This document shows, one piece after another, positions 1 through 9,316 of a stretch of 9,316 bases of DNA. The translations under genes and the position numbers were made by a program. Position 1 is the stretch's first letter. Each line of letters starts with the position of its first letter. The notes below the pieces were generated by a model. That model saw only the letters and a list, made by a program, of their open reading frames with translations, ran no database searches and was not told the origin of the DNA. The stretch is from JADFSZ01 sp022560555 [NCBI: PVC group bacterium] (GTDB lineage Bacteria > GCA-001730085 > JADFSZ01): contig JADFSZ010000058.1 of the NCBI GenBank assembly GCA_022560555.1, positions 1 to 9,316 of the forward strand, read 5' to 3'.

Positions 1-1
1 G

Positions 2-103
2 GCTGCAAACTCAACGGACGGAGGCAACACCGATAACAATGAGGCAGTACCGCACTGGATATTTATTACGGGCAATGCGGTGTTTTTTGGCACAAATTTT
101 TAA
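2..103 (+). CDS. C-terminal fragment of a probable exported surface protein
   Basis: An open frame runs in from the left edge and stops at TAA 101-103, giving the last 33 residues of a protein (AANSTDGGNTDNNEAVPHWI and onward, ending GTNF). The stretch is rich in Asn, Gly and Asp and ends in aromatic residues. From memory, 'NSTDGGN...W.F' endings occur in large surface proteins of Omnitrophota and related uncultured bacteria. The frame, the position just before a mobile element and the exported genes downstream support a real gene end rather than a chance frame. Function cannot be assigned from this tail. The stop lies only 6 nt before the REP-like hairpin, so the mobile module was inserted immediately behind this gene. 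Confidence 0.55.
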   Translation, partial: AANSTDGGNTDNNEAVPHWIFITGNAVFFGTNF

Positions 104-109
104 CCCGTG

Positions 110-142
110 AACCAGTTACCACCTACGAGGTGGTAACTGGTT
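110..142 (+). repeat. Left REP-like hairpin of the RAYT module
   Basis: The sequence forms a perfect inverted repeat with 14-nt arms (AACCAGTTACCACC and GGTGGTAACTGGTT) around TACGA. The T and A of that loop can also pair, leaving a 3-nt ACG loop. It lies 28 nt before the transposase start and is not followed by a T tract, so it does not look like an intrinsic terminator. A copy with 31 of 33 identical bases, in the same orientation, lies behind the gene at 819-851. A related 8-mer, AACCCGTG (102-109), directly precedes it and resembles its first eight bases, AACCAGTT. Confidence 0.9.
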
Positions 143-170
143 GGGATAAAACAAGGAAGGCAAAAGGGTT

Positions 171-815
171 ATGACGAACGGACAAATATATCATGTTTGC
201 AATAAAAGCATTGCCGGGTTCGTGATATTTAATAATGATTCCGAATATATGCGCATGAAAAATTTGATTAAATACTATCAATTGGAAGATCCTCCTACTA
301 AATTTTCCTATTTCATGAGTCATTTAAATGAAGGAGGAGATATTCTTAATTTGGATTTGATTGATAGAAAGAATAAGCTAATAAACATTATTGCTTATTG
401 TTTGATGCCAACACACATACATTTGGTTTTGCAGCAATTGAAGGATAATGGGATATCAATATTTATGAGCAATATATTGAACGGTTATACTCGATACTTT
501 AATATCAGGCACAAAAGGAAAGGGCCCTTATGGGTAGGAAGATTTAAGAGGGTTGTGGTTAGTACGGATGAGCAATTGCTGCATTTAACACGATATGTTC
601 ATCTTAATCCAGTAACATCATATCTTATTGAAAAGCCAGAGTCCTGGACATACGGTTCATATAATGAATATTGTTCTCAAGGGACGACGGATGAGGAGAT
701 GTGTTGTTATGAGAATATTTTGGATATTGATTCCAAAAGTTATAAAAATTTTGTAAATGACAGGAAAGAGTATCAACGAGAATTGGCAAAAATTAAGGAG
801 CTCATGCTGGAATAA
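171..815 (+). CDS. REP-associated tyrosine transposase (RAYT, Y1 HUH transposase)
   Basis: This 214-residue protein is a single-strand DNA transposase/endonuclease of the Y1 HUH superfamily (Transposase_17-like). Visible family marks are the N-terminal 'YHVCNKS' strand (residues 7-13), the HUH motif in AYCLMPTHIHLVL (H82 and H84 bind the metal), 'GYTRYFN' (105-111), 'GPLWVGRFK' (118-126) and 'RYVHLNPV' (141-148). By alignment from memory with E. coli TnpA-REP, Y142 is the likely catalytic tyrosine. All key residues are present and the frame is unbroken, so the enzyme may be active. A purine-rich ribosome site (AAGGAAGG, 153-160) lies 10 nt before ATG 171. The presumed substrate is the hairpins at 110-142 and 819-851; the second begins 3 nt after the stop codon. 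The C-terminal 45 residues are charged and not recognisable. Confidence 0.93.
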   Translation: MTNGQIYHVCNKSIAGFVIFNNDSEYMRMKNLIKYYQLEDPPTKFSYFMSHLNEGGDILNLDLIDRKNKLINIIAYCLMPTHIHLVLQQLKDNGISIFMSNILNGYTRYFNIRHKRKGPLWVGRFKRVVVSTDEQLLHLTRYVHLNPVTSYLIEKPESWTYGSYNEYCSQGTTDEEMCCYENILDIDSKSYKNFVNDRKEYQRELAKIKELMLE

Positions 816-818
816 GCC

Positions 819-851
819 AACCCGTTACCACCTACGAGGTGGTAACAGGTT
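819..851 (+). repeat. Right REP-like hairpin of the RAYT module
   Basis: This copy has the same orientation and the same TACGA loop as the left hairpin. Its arms, AACCCGTTACCACC and GGTGGTAACAGGTT, pair except for one C.A mismatch (823 with 847). The two differences from the left copy fall exactly on the two partners of that pair, which is A-T (114/138) on the left. It starts 3 nt after the transposase stop and ends 10 nt before the start of the next gene, so it forms part of that gene's 5' untranslated region. Confidence 0.9.
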
Positions 852-861
852 GCGAAATGAG

Positions 862-3159
862 ATGGTTATGGTGAAGAGAATACACATATATATATTAATA
901 TTCCTTATGACTGCATCGACTGCGGAAGCTGTTGACACGTTCTTTGAGGATTTTAATTCGCACGCCGAAAACACCACAATCAATGATGTCAATAATTGGA
1001 GTGTGGACGCGGGCGATACGGATGGGGCCGTGACACAATCCGGAAAAAGTTTTGAAGGAAGCGGGAAAGCACTCAAAATCATCGGGGACGAAAACGCGGT
1101 CGAAGTCTCCCGGAGTGAAAATTACGGTAATCTTTCGCCTGGCTGGATCGAATTTCTCGTAAACCCCGGTGTGGGTGCCGAATCGCGGGATGTGCCTTCC
1201 GGACGGATCGCGGGTGTGACATTTGATATGAACGGAAAAATTTACGCGTCAGACGGATCGAGCTGGGTGGATATAGGGGAAATGTTTACGCCTGACACTT
1301 GGTACCGGGTGATCCTAAAACTAGATTTTACCACGCATATGTATGATATCTATACATCACCCGCGAGTGCTCCCGAAGTCGGGTTTACTCCGGATAAAAC
1401 AGGTCTTCATTTTATTGATTCCACGATCAATTCGATCAATCAAATCGGATTTTCCGGAGTGCATAATGAAAGCATGCCGGATGACTCCTACGTGGATGAC
1501 ATTGTGATTCATTTTATTGACCGGGTTAATTTTCTCACGACCTCCAAAAAGTTTGACAGCGGAAGTGTGACAAGTCCCATCACGGTACAGATCCAAAATT
1601 CCCTATTAGAACCTCAAACAGCTTGGCGGGATATTTATCTCGCTCTGAGATCCACATCAGGTACAGGAGAATTTTCGTTGACCGAAGAACCATGGGCTCT
1701 TATTACGCAAGTGGTGATATTCGAAGGCGGACACAGCACAAGTTTTTATTATAAAGACAGTACAGACGGAAAACCCGTGATTACAGTCAAAGAAGATCCT
1801 GACAGAGGCTGGTTAGAAGCATTTCAGGAACAAGAAGTCTTAGAAACGCCGTTAGGTTTTGAAATTATAGCCGAAACTCCGCAGGTTGCGGGAGAAGCGT
1901 TCGATGTGACATTCACCGCGAAAAAAGATTCCGGTGAGATCGAGACAGAATATACAGGGAGTATAAATGTTTCCGTAAGTTATGTGAATCCGATAAGCGG
2001 AACGATGCAGATATCGCCTCAGTTGGTCTCAGGCTTTGTGAATGGTGTGACAACTTTAAGTTTTGTTTATCCGGATTGCGGGTTGATTGAAATTATGGCG
2101 GAAGATTCTGATGATGATGAAAAATCGGGAATATCGGGAGAAATCATGATGATTCCGGCCGGTTTTGGTTTGGCAAGTTCAGTAACCGAAGAAGGAGAGA
2201 TTTTTGAAGTAGATGTAGATCAAATTGTCGCGCGGACATTTCCGATATTTGTCACAGCAATTAATGAAGACGGCGCGATCACACCGAATTTTACAGGGAG
2301 TGTCAATCTTTCTCCTGTCGGTATTGATCCCGAAGAAACCGAGGGCGGTGTCATGACTCCTCAGGTGATTAGCGGTATTACGTTTTCGGGAGGGACCGCC
2401 GAAGCGCAGGTTTCTTATGACCGCTGGGGCAAAATCCAGATACAAGTATCAGATGCCAATTACCCGGCGCAACTTGGAAAAAGTAATGAAATTATGTTTG
2501 ATCCTGACACGATTGTTTTGACAGTGGAATATCCGAGTGAGAGCCGGGACTTCTTTTACACGGGAGAAGCAATCCCCGTGTCCCTTTCAGCCGTGGACGC
2601 GAACGGACAAGTCATCCCAAATTATTTAGGTGAGGTTGAAGTCTCCGCGAGTTTGGGAATGGGGATACCGGGAGAATATCTGTTTTTACCGTCAGACGCG
2701 GGTGAGCATATTTTTGATGCTTCTGTGGATTCATCGGGGATGTATTATGTGGATGCGCTAGAGCCGACGAATAATATTCATGCGGAAACTCTAAAGATTG
2801 AAGTCAAACAGGTTTCGATTGTCGTGGAGTCGACTTATGCGCCTGTCGGAACAACGGAAGTCACGATAAAATTAGTGGATGAAGACGGAAACGTGATTTA
2901 CTCGGAAAGTTCATTGAGTATTTTAATCGAAATCAAAGAAGAGTTTGAAGATTTTAGTGCGTTGTCTTCGGCTCAATCTCAACCGGTCACTTTTAAAAAT
3001 GGTATTGCCAAAGTAAGTGTGAGTGATTCAAGGGCGGAAATTGTGACGATTTGGGCTGTAAGTGATTTGGATTTTGAGATTAAAAAAGGAACCATAACAT
3101 TTGGACGGATCACAAAAACGGGGGTAGGATCTTTGATGTGGAGGGATATCTCAGAATAA
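862..3159 (+). CDS. Secreted multidomain protein: lectin-like domain plus tandem Ig-like domains
   Basis: This 765-residue protein begins with a signal peptide (VKRIHIYILIFLMTASTAEA, likely cleaved after A23). Residues 25-222 look like a jelly-roll / LamG-like domain: it opens 'FFEDFNSH', has 'WIEFLVNP', 'TWYRVILKLD' and closes 'SYVDDIVIHF'. Residues about 225-325 form an Ig-like unit with 'PWALITQV' and 'TSFYYKDSTDGKPVITVKED', a pattern I recall from bacterial surface proteins. Four related beta domains follow at about 331-430, 434-545, 550-647 and 650-748, sharing 'D..G.....Y.G.V' and a later 'F..G' strand. There is no transmembrane anchor, LPXTG or other sorting tail. The protein is probably extracellular or outer-surface and adhesive. 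Its place before a pseudopilin gene resembles MshQ-type proteins, a weak analogy. ATG 868 is an alternative start; neither start has a good ribosome site. The final 'WRDISE' and stop may come from the repeat at 3145-3176. Confidence 0.82.
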   Translation: MVMVKRIHIYILIFLMTASTAEAVDTFFEDFNSHAENTTINDVNNWSVDAGDTDGAVTQSGKSFEGSGKALKIIGDENAVEVSRSENYGNLSPGWIEFLVNPGVGAESRDVPSGRIAGVTFDMNGKIYASDGSSWVDIGEMFTPDTWYRVILKLDFTTHMYDIYTSPASAPEVGFTPDKTGLHFIDSTINSINQIGFSGVHNESMPDDSYVDDIVIHFIDRVNFLTTSKKFDSGSVTSPITVQIQNSLLEPQTAWRDIYLALRSTSGTGEFSLTEEPWALITQVVIFEGGHSTSFYYKDSTDGKPVITVKEDPDRGWLEAFQEQEVLETPLGFEIIAETPQVAGEAFDVTFTAKKDSGEIETEYTGSINVSVSYVNPISGTMQISPQLVSGFVNGVTTLSFVYPDCGLIEIMAEDSDDDEKSGISGEIMMIPAGFGLASSVTEEGEIFEVDVDQIVARTFPIFVTAINEDGAITPNFTGSVNLSPVGIDPEETEGGVMTPQVISGITFSGGTAEAQVSYDRWGKIQIQVSDANYPAQLGKSNEIMFDPDTIVLTVEYPSESRDFFYTGEAIPVSLSAVDANGQVIPNYLGEVEVSASLGMGIPGEYLFLPSDAGEHIFDASVDSSGMYYVDALEPTNNIHAETLKIEVKQVSIVVESTYAPVGTTEVTIKLVDEDGNVIYSESSLSILIEIKEEFEDFSALSSAQSQPVTFKNGIAKVSVSDSRAEIVTIWAVSDLDFEIKKGTITFGRITKTGVGSLMWRDISE

Positions 3160-3262
3160 CGCTGATTTACGCGGATTTTTAAAAAACCACGGATATACGC
3201 GGATATTAAAAGAATCGCAGATCGACGCGGATTGATAAAACAAACCGCCGATAAACGCGGAA
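3160..3262 (+). repeat. Four degenerate CGC.GAT..ACGCGGAT repeats
   Basis: Four 17-18 nt units lie about 27-30 nt apart: CGCTGATTTACGCGGAT (3160-3176), CACGGATATACGCGGAT (3188-3204), CGCAGATCGACGCGGAT (3216-3232) and CGCCGATAAACGCGGAA (3246-3262). The common form is CGC.GAT..ACGCGGAT, itself two head-to-tail copies of a CGC.GAT core. The spacers are A-rich. Similar short arrays are scattered through many environmental bacterial genomes, as I recall, often beside GxxExxY genes. The units are too short and too variable for a CRISPR array. They fill the gap between the secreted-protein gene and the nuclease-like gene. Confidence 0.85.
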
Positions 3263-3298
3263 GAACAGAATTTAGAAGAAAGATAAGAGGAGATAGAA

Positions 3299-3685
3299 AT
3301 GAGTAAGCTGTTGTATGAGAAAGAATCCTATGAAATAAGAGGCGCATGCTTTTCTGTGTGGAACGAATTTAAGGGAGCTTTTAAGGAAAAGATCATTGAA
3401 AATTCCTTAGCAAGGGAGCTAAAGGATAGGAGCCTTAATGTGGAGCAGCAAAAGAGAATAGAAATATTCTATAAAGATGAGAAAGTTGGGACATATGTTC
3501 CTGATTTTGTTATCAATAATAAGGTTATTCTTGAAATAAAATCTAAGCCTTATCTTGCAGATGAAGATAAAAGGCAGTTCTGGCAATATATGAAAGGATC
3601 CGAATATCGGTTGGGATTTTTAATAAACTTTGGAGCAAAGAAATTAGAAATGATAAGAAAAGTTTATGATACAGCACGAAAATAG
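3299..3685 (+). CDS. GxxExxY-family protein, PD-(D/E)XK nuclease-like
   Basis: This 128-residue protein matches the GxxExxY (PDDEXK_3) family in length and layout: 'YEIRGACFSVWNEF' (11-24), a degenerate form of the name motif (A27..E30..I33 in 'GAFKEKII', instead of G..E..Y), 'QKRIEIFYKDEKVGTYVPDF' (51-70), 'VILEIKSK' (76-83), 'RLGFLINFG' (104-112) and the C-terminal 'YDTARK'. The nuclease-fold signature P68-D69-(9 residues)-E79-I-K81 is intact, so metal-dependent DNA cleavage is plausible, although I know of no established activity for the family. A good ribosome site (AGAGGAGA, 3286-3293) precedes ATG 3299. The gene overlaps the next one by 20 nt. The AT-rich composition and flanking inverted repeats mark it as foreign to the surrounding exported-protein genes. 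Confidence 0.85.
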   Translation: MSKLLYEKESYEIRGACFSVWNEFKGAFKEKIIENSLARELKDRSLNVEQQKRIEIFYKDEKVGTYVPDFVINNKVILEIKSKPYLADEDKRQFWQYMKGSEYRLGFLINFGAKKLEMIRKVYDTARK

Positions 3686-4937
3686 AATATGGTTTAAAGG
3701 TCTTAGATCTGCGGGTGTCCGCGTTTTTAGGGATCTGCGTCGATCCGCGGCCTTTACCTTGTTAGAAGTGATGATGGCTATTGGAATCATGGCGATTATC
3801 ACGGGGACGATTTTCTTTGCTCTGACGACAGGTTTGGATAGCTGGGCTTATTCGAAAAATCAGTTGGCGCTCCAAAAAGTTTTAAGTGATGTTGTGGAGA
3901 TGATCACAAACGGCGCGCCTCATCAAAATGGTGTTAAAGACGGATTGGAAATATTGGAGGCAAGCCGGGAACGGCTTGTGTTTGTCTCCCCGTGGACGGA
4001 TGACACTCACACAGTGGTGCGGGATGAATATACCTATATATTAGACCGAAAGATCAAACCGGGTGCTGCGCCACCGGTGGTGATGATTCGGTATCCAGGA
4101 TCTGATGAGACGGAATTTTCAAATGTGCAGGTTACGCATGCCACAAAATACGCGCTCTCAGAAGTGATGATCGGCACTAAGGCTCCGCTGGGAAGCCGGC
4201 TCTATTTTACGTACCATCCGGATTCGAAAACAAATCCGGATGTGATTGAGACCCTTTGGTGGGATAAAAAAGAAAAACAAATATATTTGGAAGACATAAA
4301 TGGGGTCGAAAATCTTTCAAAAAACCCCTTTGGGGTGGTCATCAGTGAATTTCGGATGACGTATTTTGATAATAAAAACGAGCTTGTATCCGATCGTGAC
4401 TGGCTGGATCCGGATGACCGGAATTTTGTGACGGGGATTGAGATTTATTTGGAAGCTGAATTAGAAGAGTACAAGTTAACCCTTTTGACATTTATCAATT
4501 TAAGAAACGCGCCGATGTGTTTGGGGTACACAGTTTTAGAAAAAGGAACACGGATTAAAATTCCCGACAGCACAAGGATACATACTTTCCAATTAACGAA
4601 TTTTAGCGGAGTGGATCAAGATGATGTTTTGGAGTTGTTAGCGACATCGGATAAAAGAGGAGAATGGCTGATCAAAATCATGTTTGAAAATAGCGGAATT
4701 ACGCCGCCTAAAATCAGCCGGTTTGACATCGAGTATCCTGAAGGCAATGTTGTGTACACGGCAACTCCCAAATCGGATATTGCCATTGGGTTGGATATGC
4801 TGTTGTTGGATGTTGAGAGTTTGTTTGATTATGATGATGATCCGGATATAGAAGATGTGGTCATGATGACAGGGGAAGTTGTGTTAGAAGTGAAGGAAAT
4901 GGATATTGAGGGGGCCGGATTGTTTGTGAGACCTTAA
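3666..4937 (+). CDS. GspJ/PilW-like pseudopilin with extra C-terminal domain
   Basis: This 423-residue protein carries a type IV prepilin signature, A29|FTLLEVMMAIGIMAIITG, with Phe at +1 and Glu34 at +5, followed by one hydrophobic helix (about 30-55). Prepilin peptidase would cleave before F30 and the helix would pack into a pseudopilus or pilus. Residues 56-282 resemble minor pseudopilins of the GspJ/PilW kind, ending in a strand pair 'GIEIYLEAELEEYKLTLLTF' and 'INLRNAP'. Residues 283-423 form an extra, probably beta-rich domain that I do not recognise, with an acidic patch 'YDDDPDIED' (389-397). ATG 3666 is the only ordinary start in frame before the cleavage site; it overlaps the preceding gene by 20 nt, so translation is probably coupled. 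Much of the long leader (residues about 14-28) is encoded by inverted repeat units. Ala at -1 is less common than Gly, but I recall it as frequent in PVC-type prepilins. Confidence 0.8.
   Translation: MIQHENRIWFKGLRSAGVRVFRDLRRSAAFTLLEVMMAIGIMAIITGTIFFALTTGLDSWAYSKNQLALQKVLSDVVEMITNGAPHQNGVKDGLEILEASRERLVFVSPWTDDTHTVVRDEYTYILDRKIKPGAAPPVVMIRYPGSDETEFSNVQVTHATKYALSEVMIGTKAPLGSRLYFTYHPDSKTNPDVIETLWWDKKEKQIYLEDINGVENLSKNPFGVVISEFRMTYFDNKNELVSDRDWLDPDDRNFVTGIEIYLEAELEEYKLTLLTFINLRNAPMCLGYTVLEKGTRIKIPDSTRIHTFQLTNFSGVDQDDVLELLATSDKRGEWLIKIMFENSGITPPKISRFDIEYPEGNVVYTATPKSDIAIGLDMLLLDVESLFDYDDDPDIEDVVMMTGEVVLEVKEMDIEGAGLFVRP
3707..3750 (-). repeat. Two inverted copies of the CGC.GAT repeat inside the pseudopilin leader
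   Basis: ATCTGCGGGTGTCCGCG (3707-3723) and ATCTGCGTCGATCCGCGG (3733-3750) are reverse-strand members of the repeat family found at 3160-3262. The second reads CCGCGGATCGACGCAGAT on the minus strand and shares the central GATCGACGC with the unit at 3216-3232. They are separated by a T-rich spacer, the complement of the A-rich spacers on the left. Both units lie in the reading frame of the pseudopilin and encode residues from about S15 to A29. Confidence 0.8.
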
Positions 4938-4950
4938 AAGGAGAAAGATG

Positions 4951-5397
4951 ATGAGTATTAAAAAAATCGTATATAATGTTTTTGTATTACTCTTCGCGTT
5001 TATATTAATGAATGGTAAACTTTTTGCCGAAGAGAAGGTCTGGAACGCGGATGGGGACGGAACGACCTGGGAAAGTGACGCCAATTGGTGGATGAGCGGA
5101 CATCCGATAGAGGGAGACGATGTGGCAATTGATATGGATGCTGCGGCTGTCACGATCAATCAGACATTTAAGGCGGGGTCTATTACGCTGGGCGGAAAAG
5201 AGAACGTGGAATTAAGGAAAATCAATTTTGTGCATGGGACGATTGAACCTGATTCAACGAGTGATGTTGCTATCACAAATAAATCCGGCGGGCATTTAAT
5301 TTTAGAAGGTATCGGGACTGTAACTGTTCGTGGAACATATTTGGATACTCTTGGTACGTCGGTCAATGAACCGAGTTTTATGTTTTGGGTCAAATAA
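4951..5397 (+). CDS. Small secreted beta-strand-rich protein
   Basis: This 148-residue protein has a signal peptide (lysines 4-5, hydrophobic core to about 20, likely cleavage after A26 in 'KLFA|EE'). The mature part opens with 'VWNADGDGTTWESDANWW' (30-47) and 'DDVAIDMDAAAVTI', then 'AGSITLGG'. This is the N-terminal pattern of large autotransporter-like or beta-helical surface proteins in environmental bacteria, here as a single short unit that ends 'FMFWVK'. There is no membrane anchor beyond the signal peptide. The strong ribosome site AAAGGAG (4937-4943) sits 7 nt before ATG 4951 and only 4 nt before ATG 4948, which favours the second Met. The site begins on the last base of the pseudopilin stop codon, so the two genes form a tight operon pair. 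The function is unknown; it is probably a surface or pseudopilus-associated accessory. Confidence 0.75.
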   Translation: MSIKKIVYNVFVLLFAFILMNGKLFAEEKVWNADGDGTTWESDANWWMSGHPIEGDDVAIDMDAAAVTINQTFKAGSITLGGKENVELRKINFVHGTIEPDSTSDVAITNKSGGHLILEGIGTVTVRGTYLDTLGTSVNEPSFMFWVK

Positions 5398-5433
5398 TTT
5401 ATAGTTTTTAATCTTTACAAAGGAGGGGTGAGG

Positions 5434-5709
5434 ATGAAGAATTTTATAATTTGTTTAGTATTTATTTTTGGTTTTGTTGCATCGATAAACATGCTTTATG
5501 CGGAATCAATGCGGGATATTAAGGAAAAGGCGGCCTCATATCACGAAAAGGCGACGAGTAATTTCGTTTATTTAGATAGTGAGATGACGGCTATGTATTA
5601 TCAAAATATTCAGATTATTGATGCTTTAGAGCAGATTCGAGACCTTCTCAAAGAAAACCTTCGGCAAATGAGGGAGATTGTAAGGGAAAACAAGGATCAA
5701 GGCGCTTGA
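5434..5709 (+). CDS. Small secreted helical protein of unknown function
   Basis: This 91-residue protein begins with a signal peptide (KNFIICLVFIFGFVASINML, likely cleaved after A23, 'LYA|ES'). The 68-residue mature part is almost entirely helical in character, with heptad-like hydrophobic spacing in 'IQIIDALEQIRDLLKENLRQ' (59-78), and could form a short coiled coil in the periplasm. I do not recognise a family. ATG 5434 was chosen because AAAGGAGGGG (5419-5428) lies just upstream with 7 nt from GGAGG to the ATG; GTG 5428 overlaps that ribosome site. It is the last gene before the hairpin at 5717-5758 and probably belongs to the same operon as the pseudopilin, 36 nt after the preceding stop. 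Confidence 0.7.
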   Translation: MKNFIICLVFIFGFVASINMLYAESMRDIKEKAASYHEKATSNFVYLDSEMTAMYYQNIQIIDALEQIRDLLKENLRQMREIVRENKDQGA

Positions 5710-5716
5710 CCATGGA

Positions 5717-5758
5717 TGAATCTATTCTTAAATTCTTGAGAATACAAGAATAGATTCA
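5717..5758 (+). terminator. Nested hairpin, probable terminator of the exported-protein operon
   Basis: A perfect 13-bp stem (TGAATCTATTCTT, 5717-5729, with AAGAATAGATTCA, 5746-5758) starts 7 nt after the stop codon at 5709. Its 16-nt loop holds a second small palindrome, ATTCT-TG-AGAAT (5732-5743). ATTTTAA follows, a weak U tract. The stem is AT-rich, so termination may be inefficient, but position and symmetry support an end-of-operon role. The alternative pairing 5723-5728 with 5739-5744 could compete with the long stem. Confidence 0.6.
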
Positions 5759-5810
5759 ATTTTAAGACTTGACCCCAATCGCTTCAATGGCTCACAATTG
5801 CTCAAAAACG

Positions 5811-8800
5811 ATGAATCAACCCAACTCCCTAAAATCCAAAGGTTTTCGATCCCTCCTGGTGACCCAGTTTCTGGGGGCCTTCAACGATAACGCTTTTAAA
5901 TTGGTGATCTTGCTCCTGGCCGTTAAGATGTTTGCCGATCAACCCGGCACGGCGACGACATATATCGCGCTCGCGGGAGCAATATTCATTCTTCCTTTTA
6001 TTATCTTCTCCGCCTACGCGGGGTATTTCGCGGATCGTTACAGCAAAAAACGGATCATTGTGCTGGCCAAATTCGCCGAAGCCGCCGTCATGATTCTTGG
6101 ATTGATCGCGTTTCTCGCCGAAAGTATTCCTCTCATGCTCGGTGTGCTGTTTTTGATGGGCACACAAAGCGCGTTTTTCAGTCCCGCCAAATACGGAATT
6201 CTCCCCGAAATTATGGATGATGAAGAATTGTCACAGGGAAACGGACAGATGCAGCTGTGGACTTTTATTGCTATTATTCTGGGCACTGCCATCGGAGGGC
6301 AACTACTGGATCTGTTTTCCGATCCTTATAAAATATCCTTTGTTTTTATTGCTATTTCCGTGATCGGAATATTTTCGAGCTTCTTTGTCACGGATGTCCA
6401 ACCAGCGGGCTCCCCAAGAGCCTTTCAGAAAAACTTTCTGAAAGATATGTGGATGACGCTTCGTGAAGTCAAAAAAGAAAAGGTTCTCTTTTTGTGCATT
6501 ATGGGGAGCGCGTTTTTTTGGTTTTTGGGCGCCATATATCAAATGAATATCGTGCTCTATGCCAAAACCATGATGGGCCTCAGTGATTCCGCCTCCGGAA
6601 TCCTGCTCACGGGTATTGCTTTGGGGGTTGGTGTGGGAAGTGTTCTGGCCGGAAAGTGGTCGGGAGAAAAAATCGAATTCGGACTGGTCCCTCTTGGTGC
6701 TATTGGGCTGGGTGTGACCTCGATCTTAATCGGGTTTAGTTATGAATCCTTTTTCTTCTCGCTGTTGCTGTTTTTTCTTCTCGGTATGAATTTCGGGTTT
6801 TTTAATATTCCCCTCACGGCTTACATTCAGCAAAAAAGTCCTCGGGACAGCAAGGGGCGCGTGATCGCCGCTAATAATTTTGTGTCCTTCTGCAGTATGA
6901 TCCTTTCATCCCTTGTATTGTTGGTACTGCGTAATTTTATACAGATTAGCCCGGCAGGGATTTTTGTCATTCTCGGTTTGGCGTCGTTCGTTGTCATAAT
7001 CTATATCTGCAAACTTTTACCTGATTTTCTGACTCGTTTTCTTGTTTGGCTGCTGACGCATACGTTTTACCGGATACGAATGGTAGGGCGTCAAAATGTT
7101 CCTAAAGAGGGCGGGGCTCTGTTGGTATGCAATCATGTCTCCTATGTGGATGGTTTTATCGTGACGGCCTGCATACAAAGGTTTATCCGAATGATGCTCG
7201 CAAGAGAGTTTTATGATATTAAATTCTTGAACCCTCTGTTTCGAGCGATGAAAGTCATCCCGATCTCACCGAAAGACGGACCGAAAAAAATGGCGAAAAG
7301 CCTGGAACAAGCCAGTGAATATCTCAGGCAAGGAGAGCTTGTCTGCATATTTGCCGAAGGCGGCATTACGCGCACCGGTAATATGCTGCCGTTCGGAAAA
7401 GGACTGGAGCGCGTGATGCGCCATGTGGATGTGCCGATCATTCCCGTCCATCTTGGCCATGTATGGGGAAGTATATTTAGTTTTGAAAGAGGAAAATTTT
7501 TAAGAAAAATCCCGAGGTATATCCCTTATCCTGTGACTGTTAGTTTTGGAAAACCTATGAACGCGAAATCAAAAACATATCAGGTGCGGCAAACGATCGA
7601 AGAATTGGGAGCGGAAGCCTTCCGGTATCGTAAAGATGAACAGGAGACATTGCCGTTTCGCTTTTATCGGCAGGCCCGTATGAATCCCTTTAAGTTTTGT
7701 ATGGCTGATTCGGGAGGAAAAAAATTAAATTATATACAAGCGTTGATAGGAACAATGGCCCTTTCAAAAGCAATCCGGAGACGATGCACGAGATACAAAA
7801 TGATCGGAATCATGCTGCCGAGTTCCGTTGTCGGAACGCTTGTCAATATCGCGATCTCGATGTTAGGGAAGGTCCCCGTCAATCTGAATTTTACATCATC
7901 CGAGGAGGCCCTCGCCAAAGCGATTGAAAAATGTGATATTAAATTTATTTTTACCTCTCGTGAACTTCGGGAAAAATTGAACATCAAAAAAACCGATATG
8001 ATGATCGATATGGAGGATTTTAAGAGTGAAGTTAGGCCCGTGGATAGGTGGCGGGCTTGTTTCGATATGCTCATGTGTCCGTTCTTTATTCTTAAGCGAT
8101 TGTATATGCATACACCGAAAGTCACCAACGATGATTTGGCTACCGTGATATTTTCGAGTGGGAGCACAGGAGATCCGAAAGGCGTCATGCTCTCCCATGC
8201 GAACATCAATTCGAATATTGAAGGGCTGTACCAGGTGTTTCACGCGGAAAAAAATGATATTGTTCTCGGTATATTGCCCCTGTTTCATTCATTTGGATTT
8301 ACCGGTACACTTTGGTATCCGCTCACTACAGGAATCGGGGTGGTGTATCACAGCAATCCTCTCGACTTTAAGACCATCGGAGAGATAGCCGGTAAATACA
8401 AAACGACGATTCTCATGGCCACGCCGACTTTTCTCATGGGATATATCCGCAGGTGTACACCGGAGCAATTCCGGTATTTACGGCAAGTTGTTGTCGGAGC
8501 CGAGAAACTAAAAGAACGAATTGCCGAATCATTTAAAAAGCGTTTTAATATAGCTCCTCTTGAAGCATACGGCTGCACGGAATTGTCCCCAATTGTTTCT
8601 CTGAATATTCCGGATGTGCAGCACGGCAAGATTCACCAGGTTGGACATAAGCCTGGAACCATCGGCCATCCGATCCCCGGCGTGGCGGTCAAAATCGTCG
8701 ATCCGGATACTTTTGAAGAAAAAGCGATAAACGAAGAAGGGATGTTACTTGTTAAAGGGCAAAATGTTATGCAGGGATATCTCAAAGATGATAAAAAAAC

Positions 8801-9215
8801 AAAAGAAGTGATGCATGACGGCTGGTATATTACGGGGGATATCGCGCTGGTGGATAATGACGGATTCATCACTATTAAAGACCGCTTGAGCCGGTTTAGT
8901 AAAATTGCCGGGGAAATGGTTCCCCATATTTGTGTGGAAGAAGAAATCCATCAGGCTCTGGGAGTGACGGAGGAGCAAGTTTGTGTCGTGACATCGGTGC
9001 CCGATGAACGAAAAGGAGAGGCATTGGCGGTGTTGTATAAAGGAGATATTGATATTGAATCCCTTTGGGAAAAACTGAACGCGTCAGAGCTGCCGAGACT
9101 ATGGGTTCCAAAAAAGGAATATTTTTATCAGATTGAGAAAATTCCCGTTTTGGGAAGCGGAAAGCTGGATCTAAAAAAAATCAAAACTCTGGCACAGGAA
9201 AAGTTCCTAGGCTAA
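5811..9215 (+). CDS. aas: Fused lysophospholipid transporter / acyltransferase / acyl-ACP synthetase (LplT-Aas)
   Basis: This 1134-residue inner-membrane protein joins three activities of lysophospholipid recycling. Residues 1-405 are an LplT-like major facilitator: 'FLGAFNDNAFK' (20-30) in helix 1 and the loop motif 'GYFADRYSKKR' (71-81). Residues about 415-610 are a PlsC-type acyltransferase with the catalytic HX4D motif (H442, D447 in 'NHVSYVDG') and 'FAEGGITRTG' (514-523). Residues about 635-1134 are an AMP-forming acyl-ACP synthetase with 'FSSGSTGDPKG' (781-791), 'YGCTELSP' (920-927), 'GWYITGD' (D1010) and the C-terminal catalytic lysine in 'GSGKLD' (K1118). In E. coli LplT and Aas are separate neighbouring proteins; fusions of about 1140 residues are known in other bacteria. 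The order flippase, acyltransferase, ligase suits import of lysophospholipid, activation of fatty acid on ACP and reacylation. ATG 5811 is chosen because homologues begin close before the first helix; ATG 5787 and TTG 5769 are possible. None has a clear ribosome site. Confidence 0.93.
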   Translation: MNQPNSLKSKGFRSLLVTQFLGAFNDNAFKLVILLLAVKMFADQPGTATTYIALAGAIFILPFIIFSAYAGYFADRYSKKRIIVLAKFAEAAVMILGLIAFLAESIPLMLGVLFLMGTQSAFFSPAKYGILPEIMDDEELSQGNGQMQLWTFIAIILGTAIGGQLLDLFSDPYKISFVFIAISVIGIFSSFFVTDVQPAGSPRAFQKNFLKDMWMTLREVKKEKVLFLCIMGSAFFWFLGAIYQMNIVLYAKTMMGLSDSASGILLTGIALGVGVGSVLAGKWSGEKIEFGLVPLGAIGLGVTSILIGFSYESFFFSLLLFFLLGMNFGFFNIPLTAYIQQKSPRDSKGRVIAANNFVSFCSMILSSLVLLVLRNFIQISPAGIFVILGLASFVVIIYICKLLPDFLTRFLVWLLTHTFYRIRMVGRQNVPKEGGALLVCNHVSYVDGFIVTACIQRFIRMMLAREFYDIKFLNPLFRAMKVIPISPKDGPKKMAKSLEQASEYLRQGELVCIFAEGGITRTGNMLPFGKGLERVMRHVDVPIIPVHLGHVWGSIFSFERGKFLRKIPRYIPYPVTVSFGKPMNAKSKTYQVRQTIEELGAEAFRYRKDEQETLPFRFYRQARMNPFKFCMADSGGKKLNYIQALIGTMALSKAIRRRCTRYKMIGIMLPSSVVGTLVNIAISMLGKVPVNLNFTSSEEALAKAIEKCDIKFIFTSRELREKLNIKKTDMMIDMEDFKSEVRPVDRWRACFDMLMCPFFILKRLYMHTPKVTNDDLATVIFSSGSTGDPKGVMLSHANINSNIEGLYQVFHAEKNDIVLGILPLFHSFGFTGTLWYPLTTGIGVVYHSNPLDFKTIGEIAGKYKTTILMATPTFLMGYIRRCTPEQFRYLRQVVVGAEKLKERIAESFKKRFNIAPLEAYGCTELSPIVSLNIPDVQHGKIHQVGHKPGTIGHPIPGVAVKIVDPDTFEEKAINEEGMLLVKGQNVMQGYLKDDKKTKEVMHDGWYITGDIALVDNDGFITIKDRLSRFSKIAGEMVPHICVEEEIHQALGVTEEQVCVVTSVPDERKGEALAVLYKGDIDIESLWEKLNASELPRLWVPKKEYFYQIEKIPVLGSGKLDLKKIKTLAQEKFLG

Positions 9216-9245
9216 TCTACTCAAATACTTATAAATATCTATAGA

Positions 9246-9279
9246 AGAATGACAAGAACCTCTATATAATAGTCATTCT
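9246..9279 (+). promoter_or_regulatory. Inverted repeat around a -10 box (possible operator or weak terminator)
   Basis: AGAATGAC (9246-9253) and GTCATTCT (9272-9279) form a perfect 8-bp inverted repeat with an 18-nt, AT-rich interval that contains TATAAT. It lies 30 nt after the stop of the fused transport/acyltransferase gene and 24 nt before the next start codon. The long loop and lack of a T tract argue against a classic terminator. A repressor site over the promoter of the gene at 9304 is a reasonable reading, but no regulator is known. Confidence 0.4.
9265..9270 (+). promoter_or_regulatory. Candidate -10 box (TATAAT) for the gene at 9304
   Basis: TATAAT is an exact match to the sigma-70 -10 consensus and lies 33 nt before the start codon at 9304, a fitting distance for a short leader. 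No good -35 hexamer is seen 16-18 nt upstream, and the region is generally AT-rich, so the match could be chance. TATACT at 9282-9287 is a second, weaker candidate. Confidence 0.35.
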
Positions 9280-9303
9280 GGTATACTTAGATAGGAGGCG
9301 TTT

Positions 9304-9316
9304 ATGAGAAAGAGGA
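9304..9316 (+). CDS. Start of a further gene, cut by the window edge
   Basis: ATG 9304 follows a strong ribosome site (AGGAGG, 9293-9298) at 5 nt spacing, and the visible codons read M-R-K-R. The basic start would fit a signal peptide, a prepilin leader or a cytosolic protein; nothing more can be said. The intervening 88 bases after the previous stop and the candidate promoter at 9265 suggest its own transcription. Confidence 0.6.

Follow-up and report, generated by a model that had tools for sequence, protein, structure and literature searches.

A GxxExxY nuclease gene between mirror-image heptamer arrays: a candidate mobile or repeat-propagating element in bacteria

The described systems closest to the locus reported here join a small gene to short repeats or to a target site. 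In the repetitive extragenic palindrome (REP)/REPIN systems with their REP-associated tyrosine transposases (RAYTs), a small gene lies between inverted short repeats, solo pairs of the repeat are dispersed, and the repeat type matches the enzyme. Insertion sequences carry terminal inverted repeats around one gene and have many gene-less inverted-repeat derivatives (miniature inverted-repeat transposable elements, MITEs). Free-standing homing endonucleases are selfish nuclease genes near a presumed target, and classical homing is not known to come with arrays on both sides or with high numbers of solo arrays. In cyanobacteria, the small dispersed repeats that Elhai and colleagues are said to have described in 2008 are very short and mobile-looking; to our knowledge, no nuclease gene linked to them has been described. 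In this study we analyzed a stretch of 9,316 nucleotides (contig JADFSZ010000058.1, positions 1 to 9,316 of the forward strand, assembly GCA_022560555.1, from the PVC group bacterium JADFSZ01 sp022560555; “the window”) which holds a GxxExxY-family nuclease gene enclosed by inverted arrays of a spaced heptamer (Table 1), together with related loci in other genomes (G, C and L numbers are our labels for genomes, contigs and loci).

With REP/RAYT the locus shares only its logic: the GxxExxY protein is a PD-(D/E)XK nuclease (PF13366), while RAYTs are HUH Y1 transposases, and its repeat is an array of spaced heptamers, while REP is one palindrome with a loop. Since enzyme and repeat both differ, we did not file the locus under REP/RAYT. 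It resembles insertion sequences and MITEs in its terminal inverted repeats around one gene and its gene-less derivatives, but a profile search found no transposase domain in the gene, no target duplication of fixed length was found, and the ends consist of iterated heptamers. It resembles homing endonucleases as a putatively selfish nuclease gene near its presumed target, but differs in its arrays on both sides and its many solo arrays. We regard the gene with its heptamer arrays as a putative new kind of element, in view of its enzyme class, its repeat architecture and how broadly it occurs. The original prediction had named it a candidate undescribed system; in line with that, the titles and abstract beginnings of the open-licence literature searched contain no description of the GxxExxY-array pairing, although subscription work may exist.

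Table 1. Coordinates of the GxxExxY element and the adjoining reading frame in the window
Feature	Position	Strand	Description
GxxExxY protein gene	3299..3685	+	128 aa, PD-(D/E)XK nuclease; D69, E79-x-K81, Q93-xxx-Y97; predicted RecB/Cas4-like core
Upstream array, four CRCNGAT heptamer pairs	3160..3262	+	10-bp period within a pair; successive pairs start 28-30 bp apart
Upstream pairs	3160-3176, 3188-3204, 3216-3232, 3246-3262	+	
Downstream array, inverted	3707..3749	-	pair 3733-3749 and degenerate pair 3707-3723
Prepilin-like ORF (open reading frame)	3666..4937	+	neighbour altered by the element, no working part of it

The element at the window is 590 bp long, and its basic repeat unit is the paired heptamer. 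The four forward units and the reverse units from 3707 onward that the original prediction had described were all seen, one reverse pair being degenerate: relative to CGCNGATNNACGCGGAT, pair 3733-3749 has 1 mismatch and pair 3707-3723 has 3. On the minus strand, pair 3733-3749 reads CGCGGAT-cga-CGCAGAT, with spacer letters identical to those of upstream pair 3216-3232, and the arms 3216-3240 and 3725-3749 are 80% complementary. Allowing up to 3 mismatches, CGCNGATNNACGCGGAT has 7 matches in the window, all at 3150-3262 (+) or 3707-3749 (-), whereas 200 shuffles of the window averaged 0.79 matches and never gave more than 3. In the whole draft genome (1.66 Mb in 222 contigs, the window being one of them, with one GxxExxY match only), CGCNGATNNACGCNGAT occurs with 0-1 mismatch at 9 places, 5 of them at the window locus, and gene-less array copies are present on other contigs (C17, C35).

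Such arrays flank the gene in most family members examined, from many phyla. The first set of relatives was picked by protein alone, with one genome per species (the best 80 of at least 584 candidates, from many phyla, so that the set leans to query-like proteins), and arrays were scored by the heptamer consensus CRCDRAK at a period of 8-11 bp within 250 bp of the gene. Arrays stood on both sides of 57 of the 77 genes with enough flank, and in the strict orientation (forward arrays only upstream, reverse only downstream) at 42 of them, versus 5 and 3, respectively, of 352 control ORFs of the same loci; both-sided arrays were also found at 1 of 114 control ORFs of similar size and at 10 of 2600 random positions. 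The enrichment over other genes by which the original prediction proposed to check the association was thus present. A second set (genes of a 145-genome survey and of the genus of G060, with identical proteins and spans below 85 model positions removed; L031 and L091, whose contigs are equally long, seem to be one locus, so that this set is not wholly independent of the first) had both-sided arrays at 45 of 79 genes, and over the combined 154 genes the arrays were on both sides in 94 and on either side in 132. A count free of any motif gave a similar picture: exact 7-mers repeated at 8-13 bp had densities of 5.4 and 7.2 per kb within 250 bp and of 0.9-1.5 per kb further out, i.e. they were approximately fivefold denser beside the gene. 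The recurrent 7-mers are forms of one motif (CACGGAG, CACGAAG, CGCAGAG, CGCAAAG and CACAGAG), lying mostly upstream of the gene, with their reverse complements mostly downstream. Chance or a local oddity as the source of the arrays is ruled out by the shuffles, the loci of relatives and the control ORFs.

The predicted unit is left array, nuclease and right array, in mirror-image iterated heptamers over ~470 bp. It measures 417-756 bp (median 468) in the 89 elements whose arrays have the standard orientation, 55 of which have three heptamers in each arm. The terminal inverted repeats end sharply: inverted identity at the 3 bp outside the outer heptamer was 0.84, 0.88 and 0.65 (expected 0.52, 0.50 and 0.32) and was near background beyond them, common element ends being TTCAC, TTAAC and TGAAC. 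Moreover, the two arms share heptamer variant and spacer lengths. Within the 55 three-by-three elements, the two arms had equal spacer lengths in 108 of 110 comparisons (48.9 on average and at most 66 after shuffling) and heptamers agreed at 0.69, 0.51 and 0.58 versus 0.12-0.16 expected, while the spacer letters agreed at 0.51 (shuffled 0.39, maximum 0.57). Thus geometry and heptamer are kept while spacers drift, which we read as probable recognition of spaced sites by a protein.

The window protein was assigned to its family by profile (107.4 bits against TIGR04256, cut-off 35; 108.1 bits against PF13366, cut-off 22); the literal G-x-x-E-x-x-Y signature is degenerate (E30 is kept, A27 and I33 deviate). 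The original prediction, which called the gene GxxExxY nuclease-like, is right by profile. The same prediction spoke of an intact gene with a D69...E79-x-K81 core, and indeed the ORF is intact and D69, E79, K81 and Q93 are invariant, with Y97 at least 90% conserved, in an alignment of 61 sequences (which omits L144, L152, L160 and L162; another family alignment omits L036 and L038). The residue pattern D..ExK..QxxxY is that of RecB/Cas4 nucleases. The AlphaFold2 model (mean predicted local distance difference test score 92.8) has as its best fold match SSO0001, a Cas4 (Foldseek E 3e-4, Z 9.0, 105 residues, root-mean-square deviation 5.0); the next Z scores are 8.1 (AF1548) and 7.8. The exonuclease LHK-Exo is also among the best neighbours (Foldseek E 2.9e-3), and restriction enzymes and Hjc come after these at Z 6-7.6 (Hjc 6.3). 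The model supports a predicted RecB/Cas4-type fold class, but not close kinship. Unlike Cas4, the protein has only 128 residues and one cysteine (C17), thus lacking the iron-sulphur cysteines, and a PDB sequence search at E up to 1 found no solved relative. PADLOC at E 0.01 matched the window protein to no defence family, and relative L013 to Cas4 weakly only. In one study, pipeline output placed a GxxExxY domain at the position where cas4 was expected (PMC8934634).

The repeat type follows the protein tree (FastTree, 162 proteins, 117 columns, many forks unresolved). The last heptamer base (T or G) required 6 changes on the tree (shuffled mean 19.4, minimum 15) and the array period 31 versus 59.1 shuffled; heptamer positions 5 and 2 cluster likewise. 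The window protein groups with three G094 proteins, which are also flanked by GAT-type heptamers at 10 bp, and the G060 paralogues differ from each other, one being flanked by CGCAGAT, the second by CGCAGAG/CACAGAG. The correspondence extends to arrays in trans: over 18 loci, arrays more than 1 kb from the gene matched the gene's own variant at 0.406 versus 0.261 permuted, a value reached by 3 of 2000 permutations. Among the matches listed for one genus (G155 being absent from this comparison), solo CACTGAG in G151 and G152, CGCGAAG with a few CACGGAT in G154, and CGCAGAT in G060 are all in line with the respective genes.

Array-only copies are dispersed, and plentiful mainly where the gene is present. 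The survey took 145 genomes, 33 of which have PF13366 genes, each from another family of organisms; many gene copies were partial or broken, some at contig ends. A triple-array pattern with spacers of 1-2 bp (which misses 3-bp-spacer families, i.e. many Bacteroidota loci, G094 and the window's own pairs) gave 1388 matches, overlapping matches being counted more than once, versus 34 for the same pattern read backwards. In the genomes G151-G153 the backward control was inflated because, as we read the sequences, CACTGAGG arrays match it in shifted phase. Among the 145 genomes, at least five triple arrays were found in 23 of 33 genomes with the gene versus 5 of 112 without it (odds ratio 49, p 2e-14). 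In genus g48, where the gene is patchy (2 of 7 genomes), the two genomes with it hold 128 and 113 triple arrays and the five without it 24, 18, 6, 0 and 0. As an observation in its own right, G009 has five array pairs ~111 bp apart in reverse-forward order, and in G141 (C1:799691-808677) several GxxExxY copies and fragments crowd a 9-kb stretch; CGCAGAT arrays accompany some of them, and two stand in tandem, 472 bp apart.

Support for mobility comes from the loci of other genomes, not from the window site in its own lineage. Homology between two G055 copies (L029 and L083, 93% identical, on different contigs) is confined to a stretch that starts ~12 nt ahead of the first heptamer and ends ~20 nt beyond the last; that between two G094 copies (L319 and L320, 91%) likewise runs only approximately from array to array, their downstream arrays being unlike; and L126 and L135, which belong to different genomes, are 76% identical over the array-to-array stretch. 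L083 is bordered on both sides by a 26-bp direct repeat that includes the hisG start codon. Direct repeats of at least 20 nt stood on both sides of 20 of 154 genes versus 2 of 214 control positions; 15 of these 20 include heptamers and are thus in part duplicated arrays, the L029 repeat is internal to its element, and host DNA is present in some, e.g. the 3' end of a class I (Tyr/Trp) tRNA synthetase gene at L022 and that of a shell-protein gene at L020. One conserved gene is followed by a CGCAGAT hairpin in G060, by CACTGAG arrays in G151 and G152, and by no array in three congeners over the stretch compared; in G155, the counterpart of the G060 gene locus is without gene and CGCAGAT arrays, the flanks being 75-78% identical. 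At two sites (G047:C1:905847 and G145:C1:2876767) part of the array has given way to another dispersed repeat in one of two related genomes, with each genome altered at one site and intact at the other; this looks like conversion at arrays. Carriage by plasmids (8 records) or viruses (no match among phage records at E 1e-5; 11 stretches of viral contigs matching the pattern, 3 of which encode a relative) is rare, and was rejected as the usual vehicle.

The explanation that we favour, with moderate confidence, is that gene and arrays together form one element, mobile or repeat-propagating, and that its RecB/Cas4-like nuclease recognises arrays both in cis and in trans. That gene and repeats are one element had been put forward in the original prediction, and near-identical copies, solo hairpins and array counts tracking the gene speak for it. 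The GxxExxY protein, as a minimal RecB/Cas4-type nuclease, would bind the iterated heptamers, which stand 8-11 bp or roughly one helical turn apart, as a dimer or oligomer. It would then nick or cut solo arrays or the ends of arrays, after which repair by the host would copy the element or array into the broken site, through duplicative insertion or a gene conversion akin to homing. Array hairpins without the gene would be non-autonomous passengers spread in trans, and as a by-product of that repair adjoining host DNA would be duplicated in tandem or left as direct repeats.

Several observations weigh against this explanation. i) The original prediction had proposed to define the ends from empty and filled sites; a 400-kb comparison of ten G047 and two G145 array sites (two with unmapped flanks, one too long to align) gave a clean insertion at 0 of 9 aligned sites. 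In G145 and G148, which lack the gene, its last codons apparently remain, so that a clean empty site in the genus of G047 was rejected in favour of a deletion. ii) No target-site duplication of fixed length, nor a classical short one, was found: with offsets to 7 and lengths to 12 allowed, 14 of 89 elements had a repeat of at least 5 nt, versus 9.7 after shuffling. iii) Homology of L100/L128, L328/L331 and L129/L156 runs past the arrays into longer flanks, and L331/L334, 96% identical in two species, have no adjoining array. iv) Both-sided arrays are missing from 34 of 79 second-set genes, and 6 of 33 gene-bearing genomes have no pattern matches. v) Arrays also occur where no gene was detected: G145 and G148 are the g48 genomes with 24 and 18; G153, the only gene-less genome of genus g61, has 59, with 59 in the control; G009, G013 and G120 have 26, 22 and 18 without a PF13366 gene; and G065 and G098 have 53 and 15, with raised control counts. 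vi) Among the matches listed, G154 also has many CGCGAAT tandem copies, and a large CGCAAAG family in G060 matches neither of its two GxxExxY genes, being perhaps the leftover of a lost gene. vii) Linkage in cis alone would make the repeat type follow the protein tree. viii) RAYT transposases are present in 29 of 33 GxxExxY genomes, and of the 4 that lack them a single one has five arrays or more, so that the two enzymes may act jointly. Separately, the G060 CGCAAAG hairpins (e.g. L300:3425 and L070:6485) carry TTGA/TCAA ends.

Our confidence in the favoured explanation and in the three below attaches to readings that partly overlap. Of those three, the one that survives best, though we think it unlikely, holds that the protein is a resident chromosome-maintenance or recombination enzyme autoregulated by its own flanks, with the arrays as its dispersed binding sites, which would have spread via ordinary duplication and drift and not by the enzyme. 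In its favour, elements occupy the same operon sites in different genera. In Alphaproteobacteria they lie upstream of carB, between it and carA: Pfam supports both neighbours at L109, and the downstream start was assigned through Pfam at L131 and by eye at L116. In Betaproteobacteria they separate trpE- and trpG-like genes (L098 and L114, one neighbour of each being supported by Pfam). A locus with conserved flanks common to G047 and G150, and the rarity of plasmid and viral carriage, point the same way. On the other hand, a resident system sits poorly with the near-identical copies at different sites within one genome, with congeners that have different array families at the same intergenic place, and with a gene that is patchy within a genus and present in many partial or broken copies.

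Still less probable, in our judgement, is that the inverted arrays fold as single-stranded DNA or RNA (cruciform, terminator-like) and are processed by the GxxExxY nuclease, which would act like T7 endonuclease I or a junction resolvase. Many solo arrays in G060 are near-perfect hairpins, spacers included, and PF05367 (phage endonuclease I) matches weakly (E 0.0011, below its cut-off); Hjc is one of the fold matches cited above. However, across the 55 three-by-three elements the spacer lengths are mirrored while their letters scarcely pair, and recognition of regularly spaced heptamers in duplex DNA thus fits better than base pairing.

Least probable of all is that another enzyme, e.g. a REP-associated tyrosine (HUH) transposase, spreads the arrays with GxxExxY as cargo or helper, for although RAYTs occur in most genomes with GxxExxY, a RAYT-like gene lies in the window and GxxExxY is missing from some array-rich genomes, the palindrome at that RAYT-like gene is a different one, the arrays rarely flank ORFs other than GxxExxY, and without GxxExxY at least five arrays are reached by only 4 of 56 genomes with RAYT and 1 of 56 without. 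RAYT as sole driver of the arrays is unsupported by the latter counts, though RAYT may be a helper.

The surroundings of the window locus were also inspected. The stop codon (3157-3159) of an upstream 800-aa ORF directly abuts the start of the upstream array. Downstream, the first ATG of the prepilin-like ORF lies inside the nuclease gene, and the downstream array would form an in-frame leader peptide (...DLRRSAA/FTLLEV); on contig C35 near 5494-5544 (L046), an array lies within a prepilin-like leader and is read in frame, as at window 3666-3760. On contig C17, a forward and inverted array set stands directly 5' of a gene whose start resembles that of ribosomal protein L11. An Rfam scan of the window found no RNA family above threshold. 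Located 2.3 kb upstream of the nuclease element is a second gene-plus-repeat element, a RAYT-like Y1 transposase gene (171-815; PF01797 above cut-off, NF047646 below its cut-off) between palindromes at 110-146 and 819-855 that are 92% identical. Further downstream, a 1148-aa ORF (5769-9215) fuses a major-facilitator transporter, an acyltransferase and an AMP-binding (acyl-activating) domain.

GxxExxY proteins are widespread and their role is not known, and short interspersed repeats like these number in the hundreds in some genomes without known cause; the tie between gene and repeat gives both a testable function and a candidate new enzyme type for the propagation of gene and repeat. It also offers a natural series of nucleases, since the flanks of each gene spell out the sequence and spacing that its product would target. 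Tentatively, at a little under even confidence, we propose that GxxExxY may be a pan-bacterial class of nuclease-driven repeat elements, each lineage with its own heptamer and spacing, in which solo arrays would be cut and gene and hairpins copied through repair. If so, the class would account for a large share of the dispersed CACAGAG-, CACGAAG- and CGCAGAT-type repeats in environmental genomes.

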